Part shown: in pieces, positions 2,787-10,754 of the stretch
Layout: each line of letters opens with the position of its first letter
How positions within the stretch are numbered: the stretch's first letter is position 1
The notes under the pieces: model-generated
What the model was told of the DNA's origin: nothing
Database searches by the model: none
Seen by the model: only the letters and a program-made list of their open reading frames with translations
From: Mucilaginibacter pankratovii
Lineage (GTDB): Bacteria; Bacteroidota; Bacteroidia; Sphingobacteriales; Sphingobacteriaceae
NCBI RefSeq assembly: GCF_014773265.1
Contig: NZ_JACWMY010000012.1
Span: 124,001-188,000 of the forward strand
Length of the DNA: 64,000 nucleotides
Direction: 5' to 3'
Translations under genes and position numbers: made by a program

Positions 2787-2889
2787 AGTTCATGGTTCAT
2801 GGATGATAGTTCATGGTAGCTCGTGTTGCTCTTAGCCACTGACGGTACATTGGAGCTGCTATGAACCATGAACTATAAGCTATGAACTA
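2787..2889. repeat. Intergenic palindrome built of ATGAACCATGAAC words
   Basis: The left half repeats TTCATGGTTCATGG and the right half carries the inverse, ATGAACCATGAACTA, so the 103 bases can fold into a long imperfect hairpin. It fills the gap between hisIE and the WD40 gene and supplies the TAG stop codon of hisIE (2887-2889). It is one of several word-based palindrome families in this window. Confidence 0.7.
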
Positions 2890-3474
2890 CTTATGTCTTT
2901 CCTCTAAATTTTTAGCTATCCGCTCCAAGGTTAAATTCTTCTCGCGAAGCAGAACCAAAAGGTGAAATACCAAATCGGATGCTTCGTTTATGAGGTCGGT
3001 TTCGGTTTCGGCAAGAGCTGCTATTACGGTTTCTACCCCTTCTTCGCCTACCTTTTGGGCAATTTTGTTGAGCCCTTTTGCGCGCAGTTTATTTACATAC
3101 GATCCTTCTACCGGGTTGGCGTACCTATCGGCAATAATGCCTTCCAACTGCATGATAAAGTTTTGGTTGTACTCCGTTTGGAAACAACTGCGCGAGCCGG
3201 TATGGCAGGTTGGGCCATCGGCGCTAACCTTTATCAGCAGGGTATCGTTATCGCAATCGATATGCATGGTTTTTACATGCAGGTAATTTTTGCTGGTTTC
3301 GCCTTTGGTCCACAGGCGGTTTTTGGAGCGCGAAAAAAAGGTTACTACGTTTTCGGCCACGGTTTTTTCGTAGGCTTCCTGGTTCATGTAGCCCAGCATC
3401 AGCACCTCAAGCGTGTGCTCGTCCTGTATAATAACGGGTACTAATCCGTCTGTTTTATTGAAATCGATATTCAT
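2887..3474 (-). CDS. hisIE: HisIE: phosphoribosyl-AMP cyclohydrolase / phosphoribosyl-ATP pyrophosphatase
   Basis: A bifunctional enzyme for steps 2 and 3 of histidine synthesis. The N-terminal HisI domain (about residues 1-105) has the metal-binding signature around [10 protein letters not shown] and HTGSRSCF. The C-terminal HisE domain has [21 protein letters not shown] and the helix ending [15 protein letters not shown] start it at the ATG at 3474 ([10 protein letters not shown], 195 residues). An upstream in-frame TTG at 3510 would begin inside the GGCGGTG hairpin repeat and is unlikely. It is the last his gene of the operon. Confidence 0.95.
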
Positions 3475-3490
3475 GTTCTCGTTGTTTGTT

Positions 3491-3508
3491 GGCGGTGGGG
3501 ACACCGCC
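3491..3508. repeat. Short hairpin repeat GGCGGTG-loop-CACCGCC
   Basis: A perfect 7-bp stem with loop GGGA lies just before the hisIE start. The same stem with loop AGGA recurs at 48289-48306 in an unrelated intergenic region, so this is a dispersed hairpin rather than an operon-specific signal. Confidence 0.6.
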
Positions 3509-3530
3509 AACGGGGTATTTTATTTAGTCA

Positions 3531-3656
3531 CGTCATTGCGAGGTGTTTAGCCTCACCCTGCCCTCTCCAAAGGAGAGGGTTCCTTTCTTTTTAAGTCCTC
3601 TCCTTTGGAGAGGATTTAGGTGAGGCTCCAGCTTCGTGCCTCGCAATCACACGTCG
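3531..3656. repeat. Composite nested palindromic repeat between hisF and hisIE
   Basis: The outer arms are CGTCATTGCGAGG (from 3531) and GTGCCTCGCAATCAC (to about 3651), the same family as 4439-4522 and 8221-8319. Inside lies a different palindrome, 3550-3627, with GCCTCACC...CCCTCTCC paired to ggagagg...GGTGAGGC. One repeat appears to sit inside another. Confidence 0.65.
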
Positions 3657-3658
3657 CG

Positions 3659-4414
3659 CTACACCCTCACCTCTATATTATTCTCTCTTAAAATAGCCTT
3701 CAGATCCGGTATCAATATCTCGCCATAGTGAAATACTGAAGCAGCCAAAGCCGCATCTACATTGGTTTGCTGAAATACATCAACGAAATGCTGCACCGAG
3801 CCCGCGCCACCCGAAGCTATAACCGGGATGTTCACCGCATTGTTTACCTGGGTTAAAAATCCGTTATCGAAACCCGCTTTGGTACCGTCGTGATCCATAG
3901 AGGTGAGCAGTATCTCGCCTGCGCCGCGGCTTTCGGCCTCTAATATCCAGTCTAAAGTTTGTTTATCGGTTGGTAAACGCCCGCCATTTAGGTGAACGAT
4001 ATTTTTATCGCCCATTACCCGGGTATCTACGGCCACAATAACAAACTGTACGCCAAAAGCTTTGGCCAGTTCATCTATCAAAGCAGGGTTACGCACTGCA
4101 GCTGAGTTAATGGAGATCTTATCTGCACCTGCATTTAGCAAAGCATCAGCATCGGCAATTTCTGTAATGCCACCGCCAATGGTGAATGGAATATTGATCT
4201 GCCTGGCTACAGCTTTCACCAGTTCTATAAGTGTTTTGCGTTTCTCTACAGTGGCGCTTATATCCAGGAACACGAGTTCGTCGGCGCCTTGCTGGGAATA
4301 GTTCCAGGCAAGTTCTACCGGGTCGCCTGCGTCGCGCAGGTCGACAAAATTAACGCCCTTTACAGTACGGCCGTCTTTAACGTCTAAACAAGGGATTATT
4401 CTTTTAGCGAGCAT
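3659..4414 (-). CDS. hisF: HisF: imidazole glycerol phosphate synthase cyclase subunit
   Basis: A 251-residue (beta/alpha)8 barrel that, with HisH, converts PRFAR plus ammonia into imidazole glycerol phosphate and AICAR. Family marks are the N-terminal [15 protein letters not shown] with the catalytic aspartate, [24 protein letters not shown] and the phosphate loop [10 protein letters not shown]. The length is normal. It lies between hisA and hisIE on the minus strand, separated from hisA by a 140-base gap filled by a CATTGCGAGG repeat. Confidence 0.97.
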
Positions 4415-4438
4415 AGGGTTTGATGCATTTTAACAAAG

Positions 4439-4522
4439 CGTCATTGCGAGGAACGAAGCAATCTCCCGATGAGCAAGGCGTACATGCAAAGTTCGGAGAT
4501 TGCTTCGTGCCTCGCAATGACG
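4439..4522. repeat. CATTGCGAGG palindromic repeat (hisF-hisA gap)
   Basis: CGTCATTGCGAGG plus CGAAGCAATCTCC is mirrored by GGAGATTGCTTCG plus CCTCGCAATGACG, with a short unrelated loop. The same arms occur at 8221-8319 and, degenerate, at 3531 and 27087. This type of dispersed inverted repeat is familiar in many bacterial genomes, including Bacteroidota. Confidence 0.85.
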
Positions 4523-4553
4523 GGGTGGAGAATAAAGCCCTTCGGGCCTCAAG

Positions 4554-5303
4554 TTATATGGACATTAGCGATTCCAAATTCCAGTTTTTTATCTCTTCGA
4601 TGCTGATATGGCCTTCGTAGATGGCTTTGCCTACCACGCAGGATTCTACTTTGATGTTGTTTAGCTGCTCAATATCATTCATGGAGCTTACGCCGCCGGA
4701 TGCGATGAGTTTGATGAAAGGCGAATGGTCCAGCAGTTTTTCGTACAGGTCTACACCTGCACCGCCAAGTTTACCATCTTTATTAATATCGGTACACAAA
4801 AAGCGGAAGAAGCCTAAAGACAGGCACTTGTCCACATAGTCCATCAGTTTGATGGGCGAGCTTTCCATCCAGCCAGAGTATTTGATCACTTCATCCAGTA
4901 CATCTATTGCGATAACCACCTGGTCGCTGCATTTATCGCGGCCGCAGATGGCTTTACTCAGATCGTGCAGAAAGGCCGGGTTGGTTATAGCCTGCGTACC
5001 CACAATAACACGGTGGATGCCTGCGTCTATCAATTCTTTTACCTTATCAATGCTACGGATACCGCCACCGTATTGCACCTGCATATCTGTTTTACGGATC
5101 ACATCAAACAGGTATTGCTGGTTGCTAAAGTCGTTTTTTGCGCCGTTGAGGTCGATGATGTGGATGAAATTTGTACCGTTGCTTTGGTACCGCTCAATCA
5201 TTTCTTCGAGGGTAACATCATATTCAGTTACCTGGCTATAATCGCCTTCGCGCAGCCTTACAACTTTTTTGTTTAAAATATCAATGGCGGGGATTATATA
5301 CAT
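4554..5303 (-). CDS. hisA: HisA: ProFAR isomerase
   Basis: 249 residues, a half-barrel-duplicated (beta/alpha)8 enzyme that isomerises ProFAR to PRFAR. Visible marks are IPAIDILNKKVVRL with the catalytic aspartate, the QYGGGIRS phosphate loop, RVIVGTQAI, CTDINKDGKLGGAG with the second catalytic aspartate, and LIASGGVSS. The start ATG at 5303 follows the hisH stop by five bases, so the two are probably translationally coupled. Confidence 0.97.
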   Translation of the reverse strand: MYIIPAIDILNKKVVRLREGDYSQVTEYDVTLEEMIERYQSNGTNFIHIIDLNGAKNDFSNQQYLFDVIRKTDMQVQYGGGIRSIDKVKELIDAGIHRVIVGTQAITNPAFLHDLSKAICGRDKCSDQVVIAIDVLDEVIKYSGWMESSPIKLMDYVDKCLSLGFFRFLCTDINKDGKLGGAGVDLYEKLLDHSPFIKLIASGGVSSMNDIEQLNNIKVESCVVGKAIYEGHISIEEIKNWNLESLMSI

Positions 5304-5308
5304 TGCTT

Positions 5309-5899
5309 TTAGATTTTTGAAAAATTCTTTAATAGTTGTTCGCCGTACGTGCCGGATTTTTCTGGGTGAAACTGCACGCCATAAAAATTACCCCGCCAAA
5401 TTGATGCCGAAAATTTGTGGGTGTAATTTGTTGACGATAAAGTATATAACGGGTCATACTCAATAAAGTATGAATGTACAAAGTAAAAGTGTGATCCTGT
5501 TGGAATATTTGCAAAAAGTGGGTTTTCTTTTTCGGGGAAGACTTGATTCCAGCCGGTGTGCGGAACCTTAAACCCATCCGTATGCGGGAATTTTAGCGTT
5601 TTGATGGGGAACAAGTCCAATAAGTTGCTGTCACCTTCCTCGCTGTAAGAAGTTAACAGCTGCATACCCACGCAAATACCCAGGGTAGGTTTATCCAATG
5701 CCTTTATGGCAGGCACCAGCCCGGTGCTTTCCAGCTTGTGCATGGCTGCGCCGGCGTGGCCTACACCGGGGATAATATAGCGGTCGTACTTTTCAAAATC
5801 GGCTTCGGTGCTGATCATGCCGTAGGCGATGCCCAGCCGCTCTAAAGTAGCAGTGAGCGAGAAAATATTGCCGGCGCCGTATCTTATTATACCTATCAT
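5309..5899 (-). CDS. hisH: HisH: imidazole glycerol phosphate synthase glutaminase subunit
   Basis: A class I glutamine amidotransferase that feeds ammonia to HisF. The nucleophile is in LGICVGMQLL, the oxyanion region in IPGVGH, and the His/Glu of the triad in VQFHPEKSG. I start at the ATG at 5899 (MIGIIRYGAGN, 196 residues). The longer frame from a TTG at 5911 would reach into the adjoining CAGTTTGC repeat. Confidence 0.96.
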   Translation of the reverse strand: MIGIIRYGAGNIFSLTATLERLGIAYGMISTEADFEKYDRYIIPGVGHAGAAMHKLESTGLVPAIKALDKPTLGICVGMQLLTSYSEEGDSNLLDLFPIKTLKFPHTDGFKVPHTGWNQVFPEKENPLFANIPTGSHFYFVHSYFIEYDPLYTLSSTNYTHKFSASIWRGNFYGVQFHPEKSGTYGEQLLKNFSKI

Positions 5900-5901
5900 T
5901 T

Positions 5902-5988
5902 CAGTTTGCAATTTCCAGTTTGCAGTGGGCAGTTCTCAGTTTGCAGTGGGCGATTAGCAGTAAAAACTGCTTTTTGCAAACTGCCAAC
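5902..5988. repeat. CAGTTTGC word palindrome (hisH-hisB gap)
   Basis: Several copies of CAGTTTGCA or CAGT on the left are answered by AAAACTGC and GCAAACTGCC on the right. It fills the 92-base hisB-hisH gap to within four bases of both coding regions. Same family as 9632-9720 and 57669-57763. Confidence 0.75.
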
Positions 5989-5991
5989 TTT

Positions 5992-7140
5992 TTACAAAAG
6001 TCCTTTTGTGCTTGGTAAAACCATCTTATTTACATCCCTTTTTACCGCCATTTTTATGGCTTTGGCAAAGGCTTTAAATATAGCTTCTATTTTGTGATGT
6101 TCGTTTTGCCCTTCTGCTTTTATGTTGAGGTTGCTTTTGGAGGCATCGCTAAAGGATTTGAAGAAGTGGTAAAACATCTCGGTTGGTACATCGCCAACCT
6201 TTTCGCGTTTAAAATCGGCTTCCCAAACAATCCAGTTGCGCCCGCCAAAATCAATGGCCGCCTGTGCCAGGCAATCATCCATCGGCAGGCAAAAACCATA
6301 ACGCTCTATCCCCATTTTATTGCCTAAGGCGGTGGCTATCACCTCGCCAAGCGCAATGCCGGTATCTTCTATGGTGTGGTGCTCGTCGATATGCAGGTCG
6401 CCTTTAGCGGTTACTTCCAGGTCGATGCCGCCGTGACGGGCTATCTGGTCAAGCATATGGTCGAAGAAGTGCAAACCGGTTGACACTTTGGCTTCCCCGG
6501 TACCGTCAAGGTTTAATTTGATATAGATATCGGTCTCCTTAGTTGTGCGGCGGTGTTCTATCACGCGTTCACCTAATTTCAAGAATTCGTAGATGTCTTT
6601 CCAATCGGTAGTTTGCAGGGCCACTACGCCGGCAATATCGCTGTCAATCTCTGGTTGAAATTCTCCGTCGCCTAAACCTGACTTATTGTTGATCCAAATA
6701 GCTTTTGCGCCTAAATTCTTCGCCAGCAAAACGTCATTCTTCCTGTCGCCTATGGTGAAGGAATTTTTAAGGTCGTATTTTGTTTCGTCGAGGTATTGTG
6801 TTAACAGCCCTGTCGCCGGTTTGCGGGTAGGGGCATTATCGGCAGGGAAGGTTCGGTCGATAGCCTCGTACGTGAAATGCACGCCCTCGTTTGCAAAAGT
6901 TTTGATGATGAGGTTATGCACCGGGTAAAAAGTGTCCTCTGGGTAAATCGAAGTACCCAGGCCATCCTGGTTGGTAACCATTACCAGCTCGTAATCCAGT
7001 TCCGCGGCAATTTTTGGCAGGTATTGCAGCGCGCCGGGGTAAAAGGTAAGCTTGGCGAAGGAATCTATTTGCTCATCGGGCGTTTCGTTGATGATGGTGC
7101 CGTCGCGGTCTATAAAGAGTATTTTTTGCAGCTTGCTCAT
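5992..7140 (-). CDS. hisB: HisB: histidinol-phosphatase / imidazoleglycerol-phosphate dehydratase
   Basis: A 382-residue bifunctional enzyme. The N-terminal HAD-type phosphatase (about 1-165) begins with [10 protein letters not shown], holding the nucleophile and acid/base aspartates, and has [10 protein letters not shown] near its end. The C-terminal dehydratase (about 185-382) has the Mn-binding repeats [28 protein letters not shown] and [16 protein letters not shown]. Its ATG overlaps the hisC stop in an ATGA, a sign of translational coupling. The fusion removes the need for a separate histidinol phosphatase. Confidence 0.97.
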
Positions 7141-8183
7141 TTGTATTGCTGTAAGGTTGATAGCAGGGTGTTATTTTCTTCGGGCGTGCCGATGGTAATG
7201 CGGAGGCAGCCTTCGCAAAGTTCCACATTGGTGCGGTTGCGTACAATGATGCCTTTATCTACCAGGTAATTATAAATACCGGTTGCATTGGTGGTTTTAA
7301 CCAGCACGAAGTTGGCATCGGATGGGTAAATATCCAGCACAAAATCCATCTTTTTTAGCGTCAATACCAGTTTATCGCGCTGGATAAGCGTCTCTTTTAT
7401 CCAATCGTTCACCTGTTGCACGTTTTGCAGGGCCTGCAGTGCTAATTGCTGCGATGCCTCGTTTACATTGTAAGGCGGTTTTACGCGGTTCATTACTTCT
7501 ATGATCTCCTCGCTGGCGAAGGCCATGCCTACGCGCAGGCCGGCAAGGCCCCACGCTTTGGAGAGCGTTTGCATCACGACGAGATTGGCGTATTCGGTCA
7601 GTTCCTGTATAAAGCTTTTTTGGCGACTGAAGTTAATGTAAGCCTCATCCACCACCACAATACCGTTGAAATTTGCCAACAAGGTTTCAATATCCTCGCG
7701 GTTAATGGAGTTGCCGGTAGGATTGTTTGGCGAACAGATGAAGATAAGCTTGGTATGCTCGTCTATCGCTTCGGCAATGCCTTCCAGGTTGAGCTGGTAT
7801 TCGTCGGTAAGCAGAACTTTTTTGGTTTCTATATCATTAATGTTTGCCGAAACCTGGTACATACCGTAGGTAGGGGGCACAATGATCACATTATCCACGC
7901 CCGGGTTGCAAAAACTGCGGAACAGGATATCGATGGCCTCATCGCTGCCATTGCCTACAAAGATGTTGCGTACAGGCAAGCCTTTTATCTCTTTCAGGCG
8001 CGATTTTATAGCGTGTTGCATAGGGTCCGGGTAGCGGTTATAAGCAGCAGGCAGCGGCGAACCGAAAGCATTTTCGTTCGCATCCAAAAACACGCTGGCC
8101 TCGCCCTGGAATTCGTCCCGTGCGGAGGAGTAGGGGGTTAGGTTTTTGATGTTTTTGCGGAGTAGGGTATTTATATCGAACAT
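7137..8183 (-). CDS. hisC: HisC: histidinol-phosphate aminotransferase
   Basis: A PLP-dependent class I/II aminotransferase of about 348 residues. The PLP-contact region [11 protein letters not shown], the [11 protein letters not shown] loop, VVDEAYINF and the Schiff-base lysine in [15 protein letters not shown] are all visible. I use the ATG at 8183 ([15 protein letters not shown]). The in-frame TTG at 8207 is less likely. It overlaps hisB by four bases at its 3' end. Upstream, a CATTGCGAGG repeat fills the gap to hisD. Confidence 0.96.
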
Positions 8184-8220
8184 TGTTATTAGTATTCTTT
8201 TAGTCAATCATTATCCATCG

Positions 8221-8319
8221 CGTCATTGCGAGGCACGAAGCAATCTCCCGATTGGACAAGTCAACGATTTGCAAATTCGCTCTACTTACGTAGAGATTGC
8301 TTCGTACCTCGCAATGACG
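8221..8319. repeat. CATTGCGAGG palindromic repeat (hisC-hisD gap)
   Basis: CGTCATTGCGAGGCACGAAG plus CAATCTCC at the left is mirrored by AGATTGCTTCGTACCTCGCAATGACG at the right. The loop differs from that of the 4439-4522 copy, which suggests that the arms are what is conserved. Confidence 0.85.
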
Positions 8320-8322
8320 GAG

Positions 8323-9609
8323 TTATTTTTGGAGACGGATCGACACCGCATTCCTGTGTGCGTGCAGTCCTTCCATATCCGCCAGTATTTCTACCGCCGG
8401 GCCTATATTTTGGATACCTTCCTCTGTTAAAAACTGGAAGGTAATCTTCTTTACAAACGAATCTACCGATACGCCCGAGTAAGCCCTTGAATAACTGCTG
8501 GTTGGCAGCGTGTGGTTAGTGCCCGATGCATAATCGCCCACGCTCTCCGGCGTTAAATTCCCAAGGAATACCGAACCTGCGTTGATGATCTTCGGTGTTA
8601 TGGTCGACCATTTTTCCGTTGCCAGTATCAAGTGCTCCGGCGCATATTCATTGCTGAAATCCATCGCCTCATCCAGCGTGTCGGTGATGATGATGTACGA
8701 ATTATCAATCGCCTGGCGCGCAATTTCGGCGCGGGGTAATATGGCTAATTGCTTTTCAACTTCTGCAAGGGTTTGTGTTGCAATGGCTTCAGATGTACAA
8801 ACTAAAATTGCCTGACTGTCTATCCCGTGCTCAGCCTGTGCTAATAAATCAGCGGCAACGTACTCGGGTTTTGCTGTTTCGTCAGCAATTACCAATACTT
8901 CCGATGGGCCGGCGGGCATATCAATGGCAGTTGTGGTAGTGCTTTGGATGATAGTTTTAGCCTTGGTTACAAATTGATTGCCCGGGCCAAAGATCTTATC
9001 CACTTTGGTTATGGTTTCGGTGCCGTATGCCATGGCTGCAACAGCCTGCGAGCCGCCCACTAAGTACACTTTATCTATGCCCAACATCAGCGCCACGTAA
9101 GCGATAAAGGCATTTACCTTGCCGTTTTTTTGCGGAGGTGAGCAAACTACGATCTCGCTACAGCCCGCTATGCGTGCCGGGATGCCCAGCATTAAAAAGG
9201 TAGACGGTAATACGGCTGTACCGCCAGGGATGTATAGACCTACTTTTTCTATTGCACGTAATTCGCGCCAGCAGGTTACACCGGGCATGGTTTCTACCTT
9301 GTCTTCAGTTTTTAGCTGCGCCTTGTGGAATTTGTAGATATTGGCATACGCTGTTTGCAAGGCTTCCTGCTGATCTGGCGACACTGTCGAGGCAATTTCC
9401 TGCAGTTCAGCTTTATCTAAATATAACTTAGTAAGCTCAACTTTGTCAAACTTTAGGGCATAGTCCACCAGGGCGCTATCGCCGTTTTGTTTTACGTGCT
9501 CTATCACATCCTCCACCAAAGCACGGATCTCATTCGCCGGGTCAACGTTGCGTTGAACGAGGGCGTTGATTTCGCCCTTGCTCAAATTCCCGTAGTTGTA
9601 AATTTTCAT
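8323..9609 (-). CDS. hisD: HisD: histidinol dehydrogenase
   Basis: A zinc- and NAD-dependent enzyme for the last two oxidation steps of histidine synthesis. Marks include ERVGLYIPGG-like VGLYIPGGTAVLPST, KIFGPGNQFVTKAK, DMPAGPSEVLV, LLAQAEHG with zinc/catalytic residues, and YAPEHLIL. The best start is the ATG at 9609 (MKIYNYGNLSKGE, 428 residues, the usual length). Two earlier in-frame ATGs (9660 and 9624) would add a tail encoded largely by the CAGTTTGC repeat. Confidence 0.96.
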   Translation of the reverse strand: MKIYNYGNLSKGEINALVQRNVDPANEIRALVEDVIEHVKQNGDSALVDYALKFDKVELTKLYLDKAELQEIASTVSPDQQEALQTAYANIYKFHKAQLKTEDKVETMPGVTCWRELRAIEKVGLYIPGGTAVLPSTFLMLGIPARIAGCSEIVVCSPPQKNGKVNAFIAYVALMLGIDKVYLVGGSQAVAAMAYGTETITKVDKIFGPGNQFVTKAKTIIQSTTTTAIDMPAGPSEVLVIADETAKPEYVAADLLAQAEHGIDSQAILVCTSEAIATQTLAEVEKQLAILPRAEIARQAIDNSYIIITDTLDEAMDFSNEYAPEHLILATEKWSTITPKIINAGSVFLGNLTPESVGDYASGTNHTLPTSSYSRAYSGVSVDSFVKKITFQFLTEEGIQNIGPAVEILADMEGLHAHRNAVSIRLQK

Positions 9610-9631
9610 ATTACTTACAGTCATCGTTTTA

Positions 9632-9720
9632 GTTGGCAGTTTGCTGTTAGCAGTTTGCATTTCAGTTAGCGGTTATCGTGGTAGCTTTTTACTGCTAACC
9701 GCAAACTGCCCACTGGAAAC
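9632..9720. repeat. CAGTTTGC word palindrome (hisD-hisG gap)
   Basis: GGCAGTTTGCTGTTAGCAGTTTGC on the left faces ACTGCTAACCGCAAACTGCC on the right, giving an imperfect hairpin. It reaches the hisG stop codon and contains the spurious upstream ATG of hisD. Confidence 0.75.
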
Positions 9721-10571
9721 TACAATATTATCTTCTCAATCGGCATTACTACAATGCCTTGCGCACCGGCTTGTTTTAGCTGGCTGATGCGGTCCCAAAA
9801 GTCGCGCTCGGGGATAACGGTGTGCACCGCTACCCAATCAGCCTCTGCCAAAGGCACTACCGAAGGGCTTTTTACGCCTGGTAATAATGCAATTACGGCG
9901 TCCAGGTTATCGCGTTTTACATTCAATACCACGTACTTGGTTTCTTTTGCACGCAATACCGACTGGATTCGCTGCATCAACTCTTGTATCAGGTCGTTAT
10001 TCTCACTGCCTTTGCTGCCAATCAACACGGCCTCGCTGCTCATTACATCGGCAAAAGGCTTTAGTCCGTTGCTTTTTAATGTGCCGCCGGTTGATACCAA
10101 ATCGCAGATGGCATCGCTCAGGCCAAGGCCCGGAGAGATCTCTACCGAACCTGATATGGTACGGATATCAGAAGTGATACCTTTTTCTTTCAGGTATTTA
10201 CCTAAGATAACGGGGTAAGTGGTAGCAATGGCTTTGCCGTTTAAATCGGCAAGGGTAGCTATGTCGTTATTGTTGGGCACCGCTATTTTAAGCGAGCATT
10301 TACCAAAACCAAGGCGTTGCAGGTAGGCAACTTCCACTTCGGTTTCTTCTATCACGTTTTCGCCAACAATACCCAGGTCTGCAATGCCATCCTGAACGTA
10401 TTCGGGGATATCATCATCGCGCAAAAAGAGAATTTCTAAAGGGAAATTTGATACGGGGGAGATGAGCGAGCTCTTATAATTTTCAAAATTAAGGCCGCAA
10501 TTCTTTAATAATTCAACGGATTTTTCGTTGAGCCGACCCGATTTCTGGATCGCTATTTTTAGTGTTTTCAC
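9720..10571 (-). CDS. hisG: HisG: ATP phosphoribosyltransferase, long form
   Basis: First enzyme of histidine synthesis: ATP plus PRPP to phosphoribosyl-ATP. The 283-residue length and the C-terminal region (about 210-283) mark the long form, which carries its own histidine-feedback domain and needs no HisZ. Visible motifs are MKTLKIAIQKSGRL, DLGIVGENVIEE and the PRPP-binding region ending DLVSTGGTLKSNGL. The start codon is GTG at 10571; a TAA lies four codons upstream in frame, so no earlier start exists. It is the first structural gene of the operon, 58 bases after the leader peptide. Confidence 0.96.
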   Translation of the reverse strand: MKTLKIAIQKSGRLNEKSVELLKNCGLNFENYKSSLISPVSNFPLEILFLRDDDIPEYVQDGIADLGIVGENVIEETEVEVAYLQRLGFGKCSLKIAVPNNNDIATLADLNGKAIATTYPVILGKYLKEKGITSDIRTISGSVEISPGLGLSDAICDLVSTGGTLKSNGLKPFADVMSSEAVLIGSKGSENNDLIQELMQRIQSVLRAKETKYVVLNVKRDNLDAVIALLPGVKSPSVVPLAEADWVAVHTVIPERDFWDRISQLKQAGAQGIVVMPIEKIIL

Positions 10572-10629
10572 AAAATGAGTTTAAGGTACTATAATAAAAT
10601 GGGGCTGTTATTTCGCGTAGAAACATACA

Positions 10630-10692
10630 TTATCTATTCATCACCGGGCGGTGATGGTGCAAATGCAGATGATGTTGTTTGTACAAGTCCAT
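10630..10692 (-). CDS. Histidine operon leader peptide (putative attenuator)
   Basis: On the minus strand an ATG at 10692 opens a 20-codon frame ending with TAA at 10632-10630. It translates as MDLYKQHHLHLHHHRPVMNR. Six of eight consecutive residues (7-14) are histidine. It lies about 24 bases after the predicted transcription start and 58 bases before hisG. A run of His codons just ahead of hisG is the hallmark of ribosome-mediated attenuation, known from enterobacterial his operons: scarce His-tRNA stalls the leader ribosome and changes the RNA fold. That this operon works this way is inference; no strong U-tract terminator is visible before hisG. Confidence 0.82.
   Translation of the reverse strand: MDLYKQHHLHLHHHRPVMNR
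10639..10656 (-). promoter_or_regulatory. Hairpin within the his leader
   Basis: CATCACC and GGTGATG form a perfect 7-bp stem around GCCC, overlapping the last two His codons of the leader peptide. A ribosome stalled on these codons would open it. It lacks a following U-tract, so it would serve as a pause or antiterminator arm rather than as a terminator. Confidence 0.55.
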
Positions 10693-10723
10693 TTTTGTAT
10701 AGTAATACTATAGATTAGCGATG

Positions 10724-10754
10724 CAAATATAGAGAGTAGTTCGGGAAATCAAAA
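10724..10754 (-). promoter_or_regulatory. Promoter of the histidine operon
   Basis: Read on the minus strand, TATATTTG (10731-10724) is an exact -7 box and TTTTG (10754-10750) a -33 element, 18 bases apart. This predicts a transcript starting near 10718, about 25 bases before the leader peptide. Confidence 0.7.

Follow-up and report, generated by a model that had tools for sequence, protein, structure and literature searches.

The his operon of Mucilaginibacter pankratovii, analysed here within a window of 64,000 nucleotides (the whole stretch of DNA that was examined), is preceded by a short His-rich ORF, and comparison with relatives strongly supports a histidine leader peptide conserved ahead of hisG. 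Its role as a His-sensing leader, a putative sensor of starvation, is well supported by the same comparison. The leader is not accompanied by an intrinsic terminator, and covariation points instead to a long-range helix between the leader start and the stretch before hisG. From these features and from folding models, we think it probable, though far from certain, that the leader acts via a ribosome-gated RNA clamp on hisG translation and not via an intrinsic terminator. The features are listed in Table 1.

Table 1. Coordinates of the his operon, its leader and the predicted RNA pairings in the window
Feature	Position	Strand	Description
his operon	2887..10571	minus	hisG, D, C, B, H, A, F, IE; eight ORFs, NCBIfam names
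hisG	9720..10571	minus	GTG start at 10571
Leader ORF MDLYKQHHLHLHHHRPVMNR	10630..10692	minus	TAA stop 10632..10630; kept in 187/196 loci
Leader regulatory codons 7–14	10651..10674	minus	CAT CAT CTG CAT TTG CAC CAT CAC; His 6/8
Bacteroidota-type promoter	10724..10754	minus	TTTTG 10754..10750 and −7 box TATATTTG 10731..10724
Strand A	10689..10704	minus	TACTATA 10704..10698 and AAAATGG 10695..10689; includes leader start codon
Strand A′	10587..10602	minus	CCATTTT 10602..10596 and TATAGTA 10593..10587; ends at hisG −16
Strand L1	10667..10684	minus	Leader codons 3–9 (GTA, AAACA, ACAT, ATCT); partner S
Strand S	10617..10635	minus	Around and after leader stop (AGAT, ATGT, TGTTT, TAC); partner L1; overlaps hairpin II
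Hairpin I	10639..10656	minus	CATCACC..GGTGATG, from last His codons; seen across relatives by eye
Hairpin II	10611..10623	minus	TTTC-TACGC-GAAA; alternative fold of S; near-invariant in genus

A histidine leader peptide and its promoter

The original prediction had placed a 20-residue frame with six His among the eight residues at positions 7–14 between a promoter and hisG. ORF translation reproduces this frame (10692..10630, minus strand) and its eight codons, a Bacteroidota-type promoter lies upstream, and the hisG GTG start follows 58 nt downstream of the leader. The encoded HisG shares 98% identity with its M. gilvus counterpart.

The motif TAnnTTTG is the promoter consensus of the phylum Bacteroidota according to the accessible part of PMC9723704. 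It occurs within 75 nt 5′ of the leader ATG in 140/143 de-duplicated Sphingobacteriaceae relatives vs. 4/143 shuffles, with a median of 32 nt between box and ATG in this set. In the window, transcription is expected to start near 10719, a predicted position upstream of the leader ATG at 10692. A sigma-70-like site at 10567..10595 lies on the opposite strand and has no relevance here.

Two kinds of repeats were also seen within the operon. A palindromic intergenic element of ~100 bp (CGTCATTGCGAGG..) occupies operon gaps at 8220..8319 and 4438..4526, with a partial copy at 3625..3655; it has 81 matches in the genome over both strands, corresponding to about half as many places. A second repeat, rich in CAGTTTGCAGT, is present as inverted copies in the hisB–hisH (5903..5989) and hisD–hisG (9631..9721) gaps.

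Conservation of the leader in the family and the phylum

Sequences upstream of hisG were collected from 80 loci on genome contigs and from whole genomes, in which hisG matches were found at the level of the genus (95/100, E ≤ 1e-60), the family (140/151, E ≤ 1e-40), and the phylum (208/247, E ≤ 1e-30). L051 and L089 were left out for having too little upstream DNA (110/112 sequences kept), and 120 further hisG upstream stretches were added to the comparison. An ATG ORF with at least four His in eight residues, 60–240 nt 5′ of hisG, was found at 187/196 Sphingobacteriaceae loci (some genomes being counted twice), compared with 0/196 shuffled and 0/196 reverse-strand controls, a recurrence beyond chance. 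Once near-identical sequences were removed, 143 leaders were left as the basis of the family statistics. They carry 4–11 His codons (mean 6.0) and use both codons, CAT 620 times and CAC 231 times.

Nine of the 196 loci had no His-rich ORF in the scanned stretch and were excluded from the structure tests. In L068/L195 and L189, a leader is present further upstream than the scanned stretch; L057/L166, L058, and L177 have weak versions with 2–3 His in eight; and no leader was found before hisG in L069/L198. In the Parapedobacter-like loci L195, L189, and L193 (and L072/L201), hisG lies at least 100 nt further than usual from the leader and from hairpin II, and the additional stretch contains TTGAAACC, which looks like the start that hisG normally has.

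Within Bacteroidota, His leader peptides widely precede hisG. Outside Sphingobacteriaceae, 83 loci were examined of 201 genomes with a hisG match, mostly with closer HisG types. A hand count that included alternative starts found a His-rich ORF (at least four His in eight) in 60 of the 83, such as MTLSQLHHHHFHTCIQASWN in L234; the seven loci taken with a remote HisG type (L275–L281) had no leader.

Absence of an intrinsic terminator at hisG

Two scans of the coding strand from the leader to hisG were negative for an intrinsic terminator in the window, and this candidate was rejected. The original prediction had described the locus as the classical arrangement of attenuation; the leader part of that description holds, but the defining terminator is absent from both the window and the family. 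Among the 143 Sphingobacteriaceae leaders, 130 failed the scan, and in all 13 that passed, the scan picked up the hairpin of the His codons, trailed by a loose run of T-rich sequence. The other Bacteroidota were counted at a looser leader threshold (at least three His in eight), reached by 65 of the 83 loci, and 49 of these 65 have a strong intrinsic terminator (dG ≤ −7 kcal/mol), against a mean of 0 over three shuffles. In L234 it reads AACCCGTCTGAATAAATCAGACGGGTT, then TTTTATTG, and in L242 and L268 a terminator follows the leader too.

The trp leader (MKKTLNNIYWWQQTKFGSRIVFDMHY; L284 1304..1435, plus strand) and the thr leader (MTTNNTTITTIITTGIKLGGR; L286 2896..3026, minus strand) of the same genome, both outside the window, are ordinary attenuators, with terminators of −20.6 and −20.2 kcal/mol, respectively. 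The missing terminator at hisG is therefore no sign that terminators are generally absent. In the trp control, which comprised the best-scoring 30 of 56 family genomes with trpE, a Trp-rich leader was found upstream of trpE in 27/30 and a terminator in 27/27 of these. No leader was seen upstream of ilvD in this genome.

A long-range helix between the leader start and the stretch before hisG

Folding predicts one long rod for the window's free leader RNA, with A:A′ at its base (z of −4.42 and −4.70), and the fold has z < −2 in 48/53 cluster representatives. By eye, A and A′ change together: a leader start of ATGAACGG mostly stands opposite CCGTTTAT, the ATGG of the window stands opposite CCAT, and in other genera TAATCAGG faces TCTGATTA (L049) and AATTATTAAAA faces TTTTAATAATT (L128).

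Covariation was assessed with an alignment-free test of our own, in which the duplex energy of A with its own A′ is compared with that of A with the A′ of other clusters and averaged over 53 single-linkage clusters, cluster averaging being the sole correction for kinship. Cognate A:A′ duplexes were better by 4.3 kcal/mol than non-cognate ones (Wilcoxon p = 7.6e-10, 53 clusters), and the control pairs were null (A vs. hisG coding sequence, p = 0.83; A vs. leader, p = 0.79). Of 28 segment pairs scanned, A:A′ (7e-10) and L1:S (2.9e-8) were the strongest. The pair L1:A′ also passes (p = 8.6e-5) and is not explained by the clamp model, and two pairs are marginal (G:G2, 5.5e-3; A0:A, 0.017). A 5′-UTR hairpin that would compete with A:A′ (CTATAGT..ACTATA, by eye) was tried and set aside, as it shows no clear covariation (the A0:A value is one of 28 tests).

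The strands are AT-rich, and a helix score of at least 6 is common by chance (141/143 cognate, 88% non-cognate); the excess of A:A′ appears at a score of at least 8, with 95/143 cognate vs. 27.5% non-cognate. Expected A:A′ pairs average 15.8, compared with 5.0 in shuffles. The helix is weak, with fewer than 6 expected pairs, in 10/53 cluster representatives, and 36% of shuffles reach 6. When 54 Mucilaginibacter leaders were aligned with MAFFT and analysed by RNAalifold, hairpin II alone was recovered, with no compensatory pair and no A:A′; gaps that disrupt the A and A′ columns are the probable cause. Taken over the family, the comparisons indicate that A:A′ is a long-range helix kept by compensatory change in Sphingobacteriaceae.

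No A:A′ helix was detected in other Bacteroidota leaders (n = 54, p = 0.63), a set that excludes 11 leaders put aside as a terminator-less group and still includes a few without a terminator. A second type of terminator-less His leader was noticed outside Sphingobacteriaceae (L253, L260, L262, L263, L266, L267, and L272; also L249 and L273), with mostly GTG starts, His-rich peptides with C-terminal ends such as HHHA or HVH, and no A:A′ helix.

Alternative pairings of the leader codons and the post-stop segment

In the covarying L1:S helix, the first His codons are paired with sequence downstream of the leader stop. Covariation between leader codons and this post-stop region is also seen in other Bacteroidota (p = 0.0014), as expected of classical attenuators. 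In Sphingobacteriaceae, a hairpin over the regulatory codons (hairpin I) is accompanied by mutually exclusive alternatives, in which S pairs with L1 or folds into hairpin II. Hairpin II (TTTCTACGYGAAA; genus form TTTC-TACGY-GAAA) has its pairs intact in 54/54 Mucilaginibacter sequences and shows no covariation because it is too invariant. Its motif occurs in 19/61 family genomes, in a single copy each and upstream of hisG every time. We read L1:S and hairpin II as two conserved, alternative RNA states.

The loop TACGY of hairpin II (10615..10619 in the window) is almost invariant though unpaired. In Daejeonella-like leaders, a TCACGTA sequence could, by eye, pair with the TACGTGA of hairpin II.

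A proposed ribosome-gated clamp on hisG translation

In the model that we favour, L1:S lies within A:A′, a nesting by which the free RNA should form a single rod. When His is plentiful, the first ribosome would complete the leader and depart, upon which L1:S and A:A′ would close and shut both the leader's own start and the 30S landing site before hisG. With the landing site before its weak, non-AUG start shut, hisG and hence the operon would be little translated. If His-tRNA runs short, stalling would occur on the first His codons, with the ribosome occupying L1; the released S would fold into hairpin II, the rod would be unable to close around the stalled ribosome, and A′ would remain open, allowing hisG to be translated.

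Several properties of the hisG start bear on this proposal. To our knowledge, Bacteroidota mRNAs lack Shine–Dalgarno sequences. The start codon of hisG is TTG in 74, GTG in 56, ATG in 11, and another codon in 2 of the 143 sequences, and thus TTG or GTG in 130/143. In the window, A′ ends 16 nt 5′ of this start. Initiation in Bacteroidetes is described in the accessible text of PMC6847099 as tuned by structure around the start, with low structure from −20 to +20 favouring it.

In simulations, a ribosome placed on the first His codon lowered the expected A:A′ pairs from 17.7 to 6.8 (68 Mucilaginibacter sequences), with a smaller drop, from 19.3 to 12.2, in other genera (75 sequences). With the ribosome at the leader stop codon, the modelled values were 15.8 in Mucilaginibacter and 18.6 in the others. 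The modelled accessibility of the hisG initiation region itself was flat in Mucilaginibacter, with an unpaired fraction of 0.58–0.59 in all states. This flat profile and the 16-nt distance of A′ from the hisG start weigh against the clamp, as does the smaller drop in other genera.

Alternative explanations

The main rival is Rho-dependent attenuation of the tnaC kind, which we consider unlikely: Rho would load on the C-rich, G-poor stretch before hisG after the leader ribosome has departed, a stalled ribosome would block it, and the rod would merely shape Rho access. The distance from leader stop to hisG (median 68 nt, 143 sequences) would be short for a rut site, and Rho has no need of a covarying helix between the two initiation regions. 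Nevertheless, the 15 nt 5′ of hisG contain 19% C and 2% G over the 143 sequences, the window and the family have no intrinsic terminator, and Rho is proposed for terminator-less cys leaders of Actinobacteria in the accessible part of PMC1262725.

Less probable is that the long-range helix mainly limits leader translation or protects the mRNA while hisG stays passive, or that a protein reads the loop of hairpin II. In favour are the inclusion of the leader start codon in strand A and the near-invariance of TTTCTACGYGAAA, loop included, but neither role requires the His-codon run to be conserved.

We regard as quite improbable a classical transcription attenuation by way of an intrinsic terminator that escaped recognition, such as hairpin I with the T-rich bases that follow it. 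Such an arrangement passes the scan in the 13 leaders noted above, against failure in the window and the 130 others, and the family does use ordinary terminators at trp (27/27). Since hairpin I includes His codons, stalling would moreover act in the wrong sense for a terminator. Finally, a leader arising by chance or persisting as a non-functional relic, for which the weak leaders (L057/L166, L058, L177) and the missing ones (L069/L198) might speak, is scarcely credible given 187/196 loci vs. 0/196 shuffles and a promoter box retained in 140/143.

Relation to known leaders

No Rfam match was found for the window or for 19 relatives. The enteric hisL attenuator has a His-codon leader before hisG and responds to His-tRNA supply. 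The leader in the window resembles it in its place before hisG, in the hairpin over its His codons, and in the expected response to His-tRNA, and differs in having no intrinsic terminator and instead a long-range helix between the leader start and the pre-hisG stretch. In erm-type translational attenuation, a stalled ribosome frees the downstream initiation region, much as the proposed clamp would; erm arrest, however, is induced by a drug and not by amino-acid supply, and the layout of hairpins differs. Control by Rho of the tnaC type likewise involves a leader peptide without an intrinsic terminator, but in tnaC the nascent chain serves to sense free tryptophan, whereas the leader in the window has a codon run.

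Closest in design is the LEU element, which precedes leuA in Actinobacteria (PMC1262725). As far as the accessible text of that paper describes it, this element resembles the proposed clamp in having a leader codon run within a structure, a base stem over the downstream initiation site, and no terminator. Its Leu codons pair with the Shine–Dalgarno box, whereas in the window the leader start region is predicted to pair with a pre-start stretch devoid of such a box, and codon mutants of the LEU element are cited there as evidence against leader translation.

Within the phylum, the accessible part of PMC9723704 reports strong clues to leader-peptide attenuation upstream of amino-acid operons in Flavobacterium psychrophilum, and a structured 5′ element at hisG that is conserved in Flavobacteriaceae. 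These elements share with the window the phylum, the place, and the proposed leader-peptide attenuation; that part of the paper describes no clamp, and many of the other Bacteroidota loci examined here have a terminator. A His leader in the phylum is thus not new in itself, and the original remark that the arrangement is little described in Bacteroidota was only partly right. In Bacteroides thetaiotaomicron, too, long 5′ UTRs contain ORFs that resemble leader peptides, according to the accessible text of PMC7366714. The open-licence papers searched included none that deals with a Sphingobacteriaceae his leader lacking a terminator, and we file the leader in the window as a candidate new form of leader-peptide control, outside the classical his attenuators.

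Implications

We tentatively suggest, at somewhat less than even confidence, that an ancestral his attenuator of Bacteroidota lost its terminator in Sphingobacteriaceae and gained the clamp instead, and that one pioneer ribosome, by stalling or not, sets the translation of the whole operon. The family would then seem to have rebuilt a textbook genetic switch, with the terminator gone and a long-range clamp in its place. The terminator persists in the trp leaders of these genomes, and the two kinds of leader side by side form a natural test of the evolution of attenuation. If the clamp model is true, the leader's own start site is tied to the landing zone of a gene without a Shine–Dalgarno sequence, and the system bears on how translation may be switched without a Shine–Dalgarno box.
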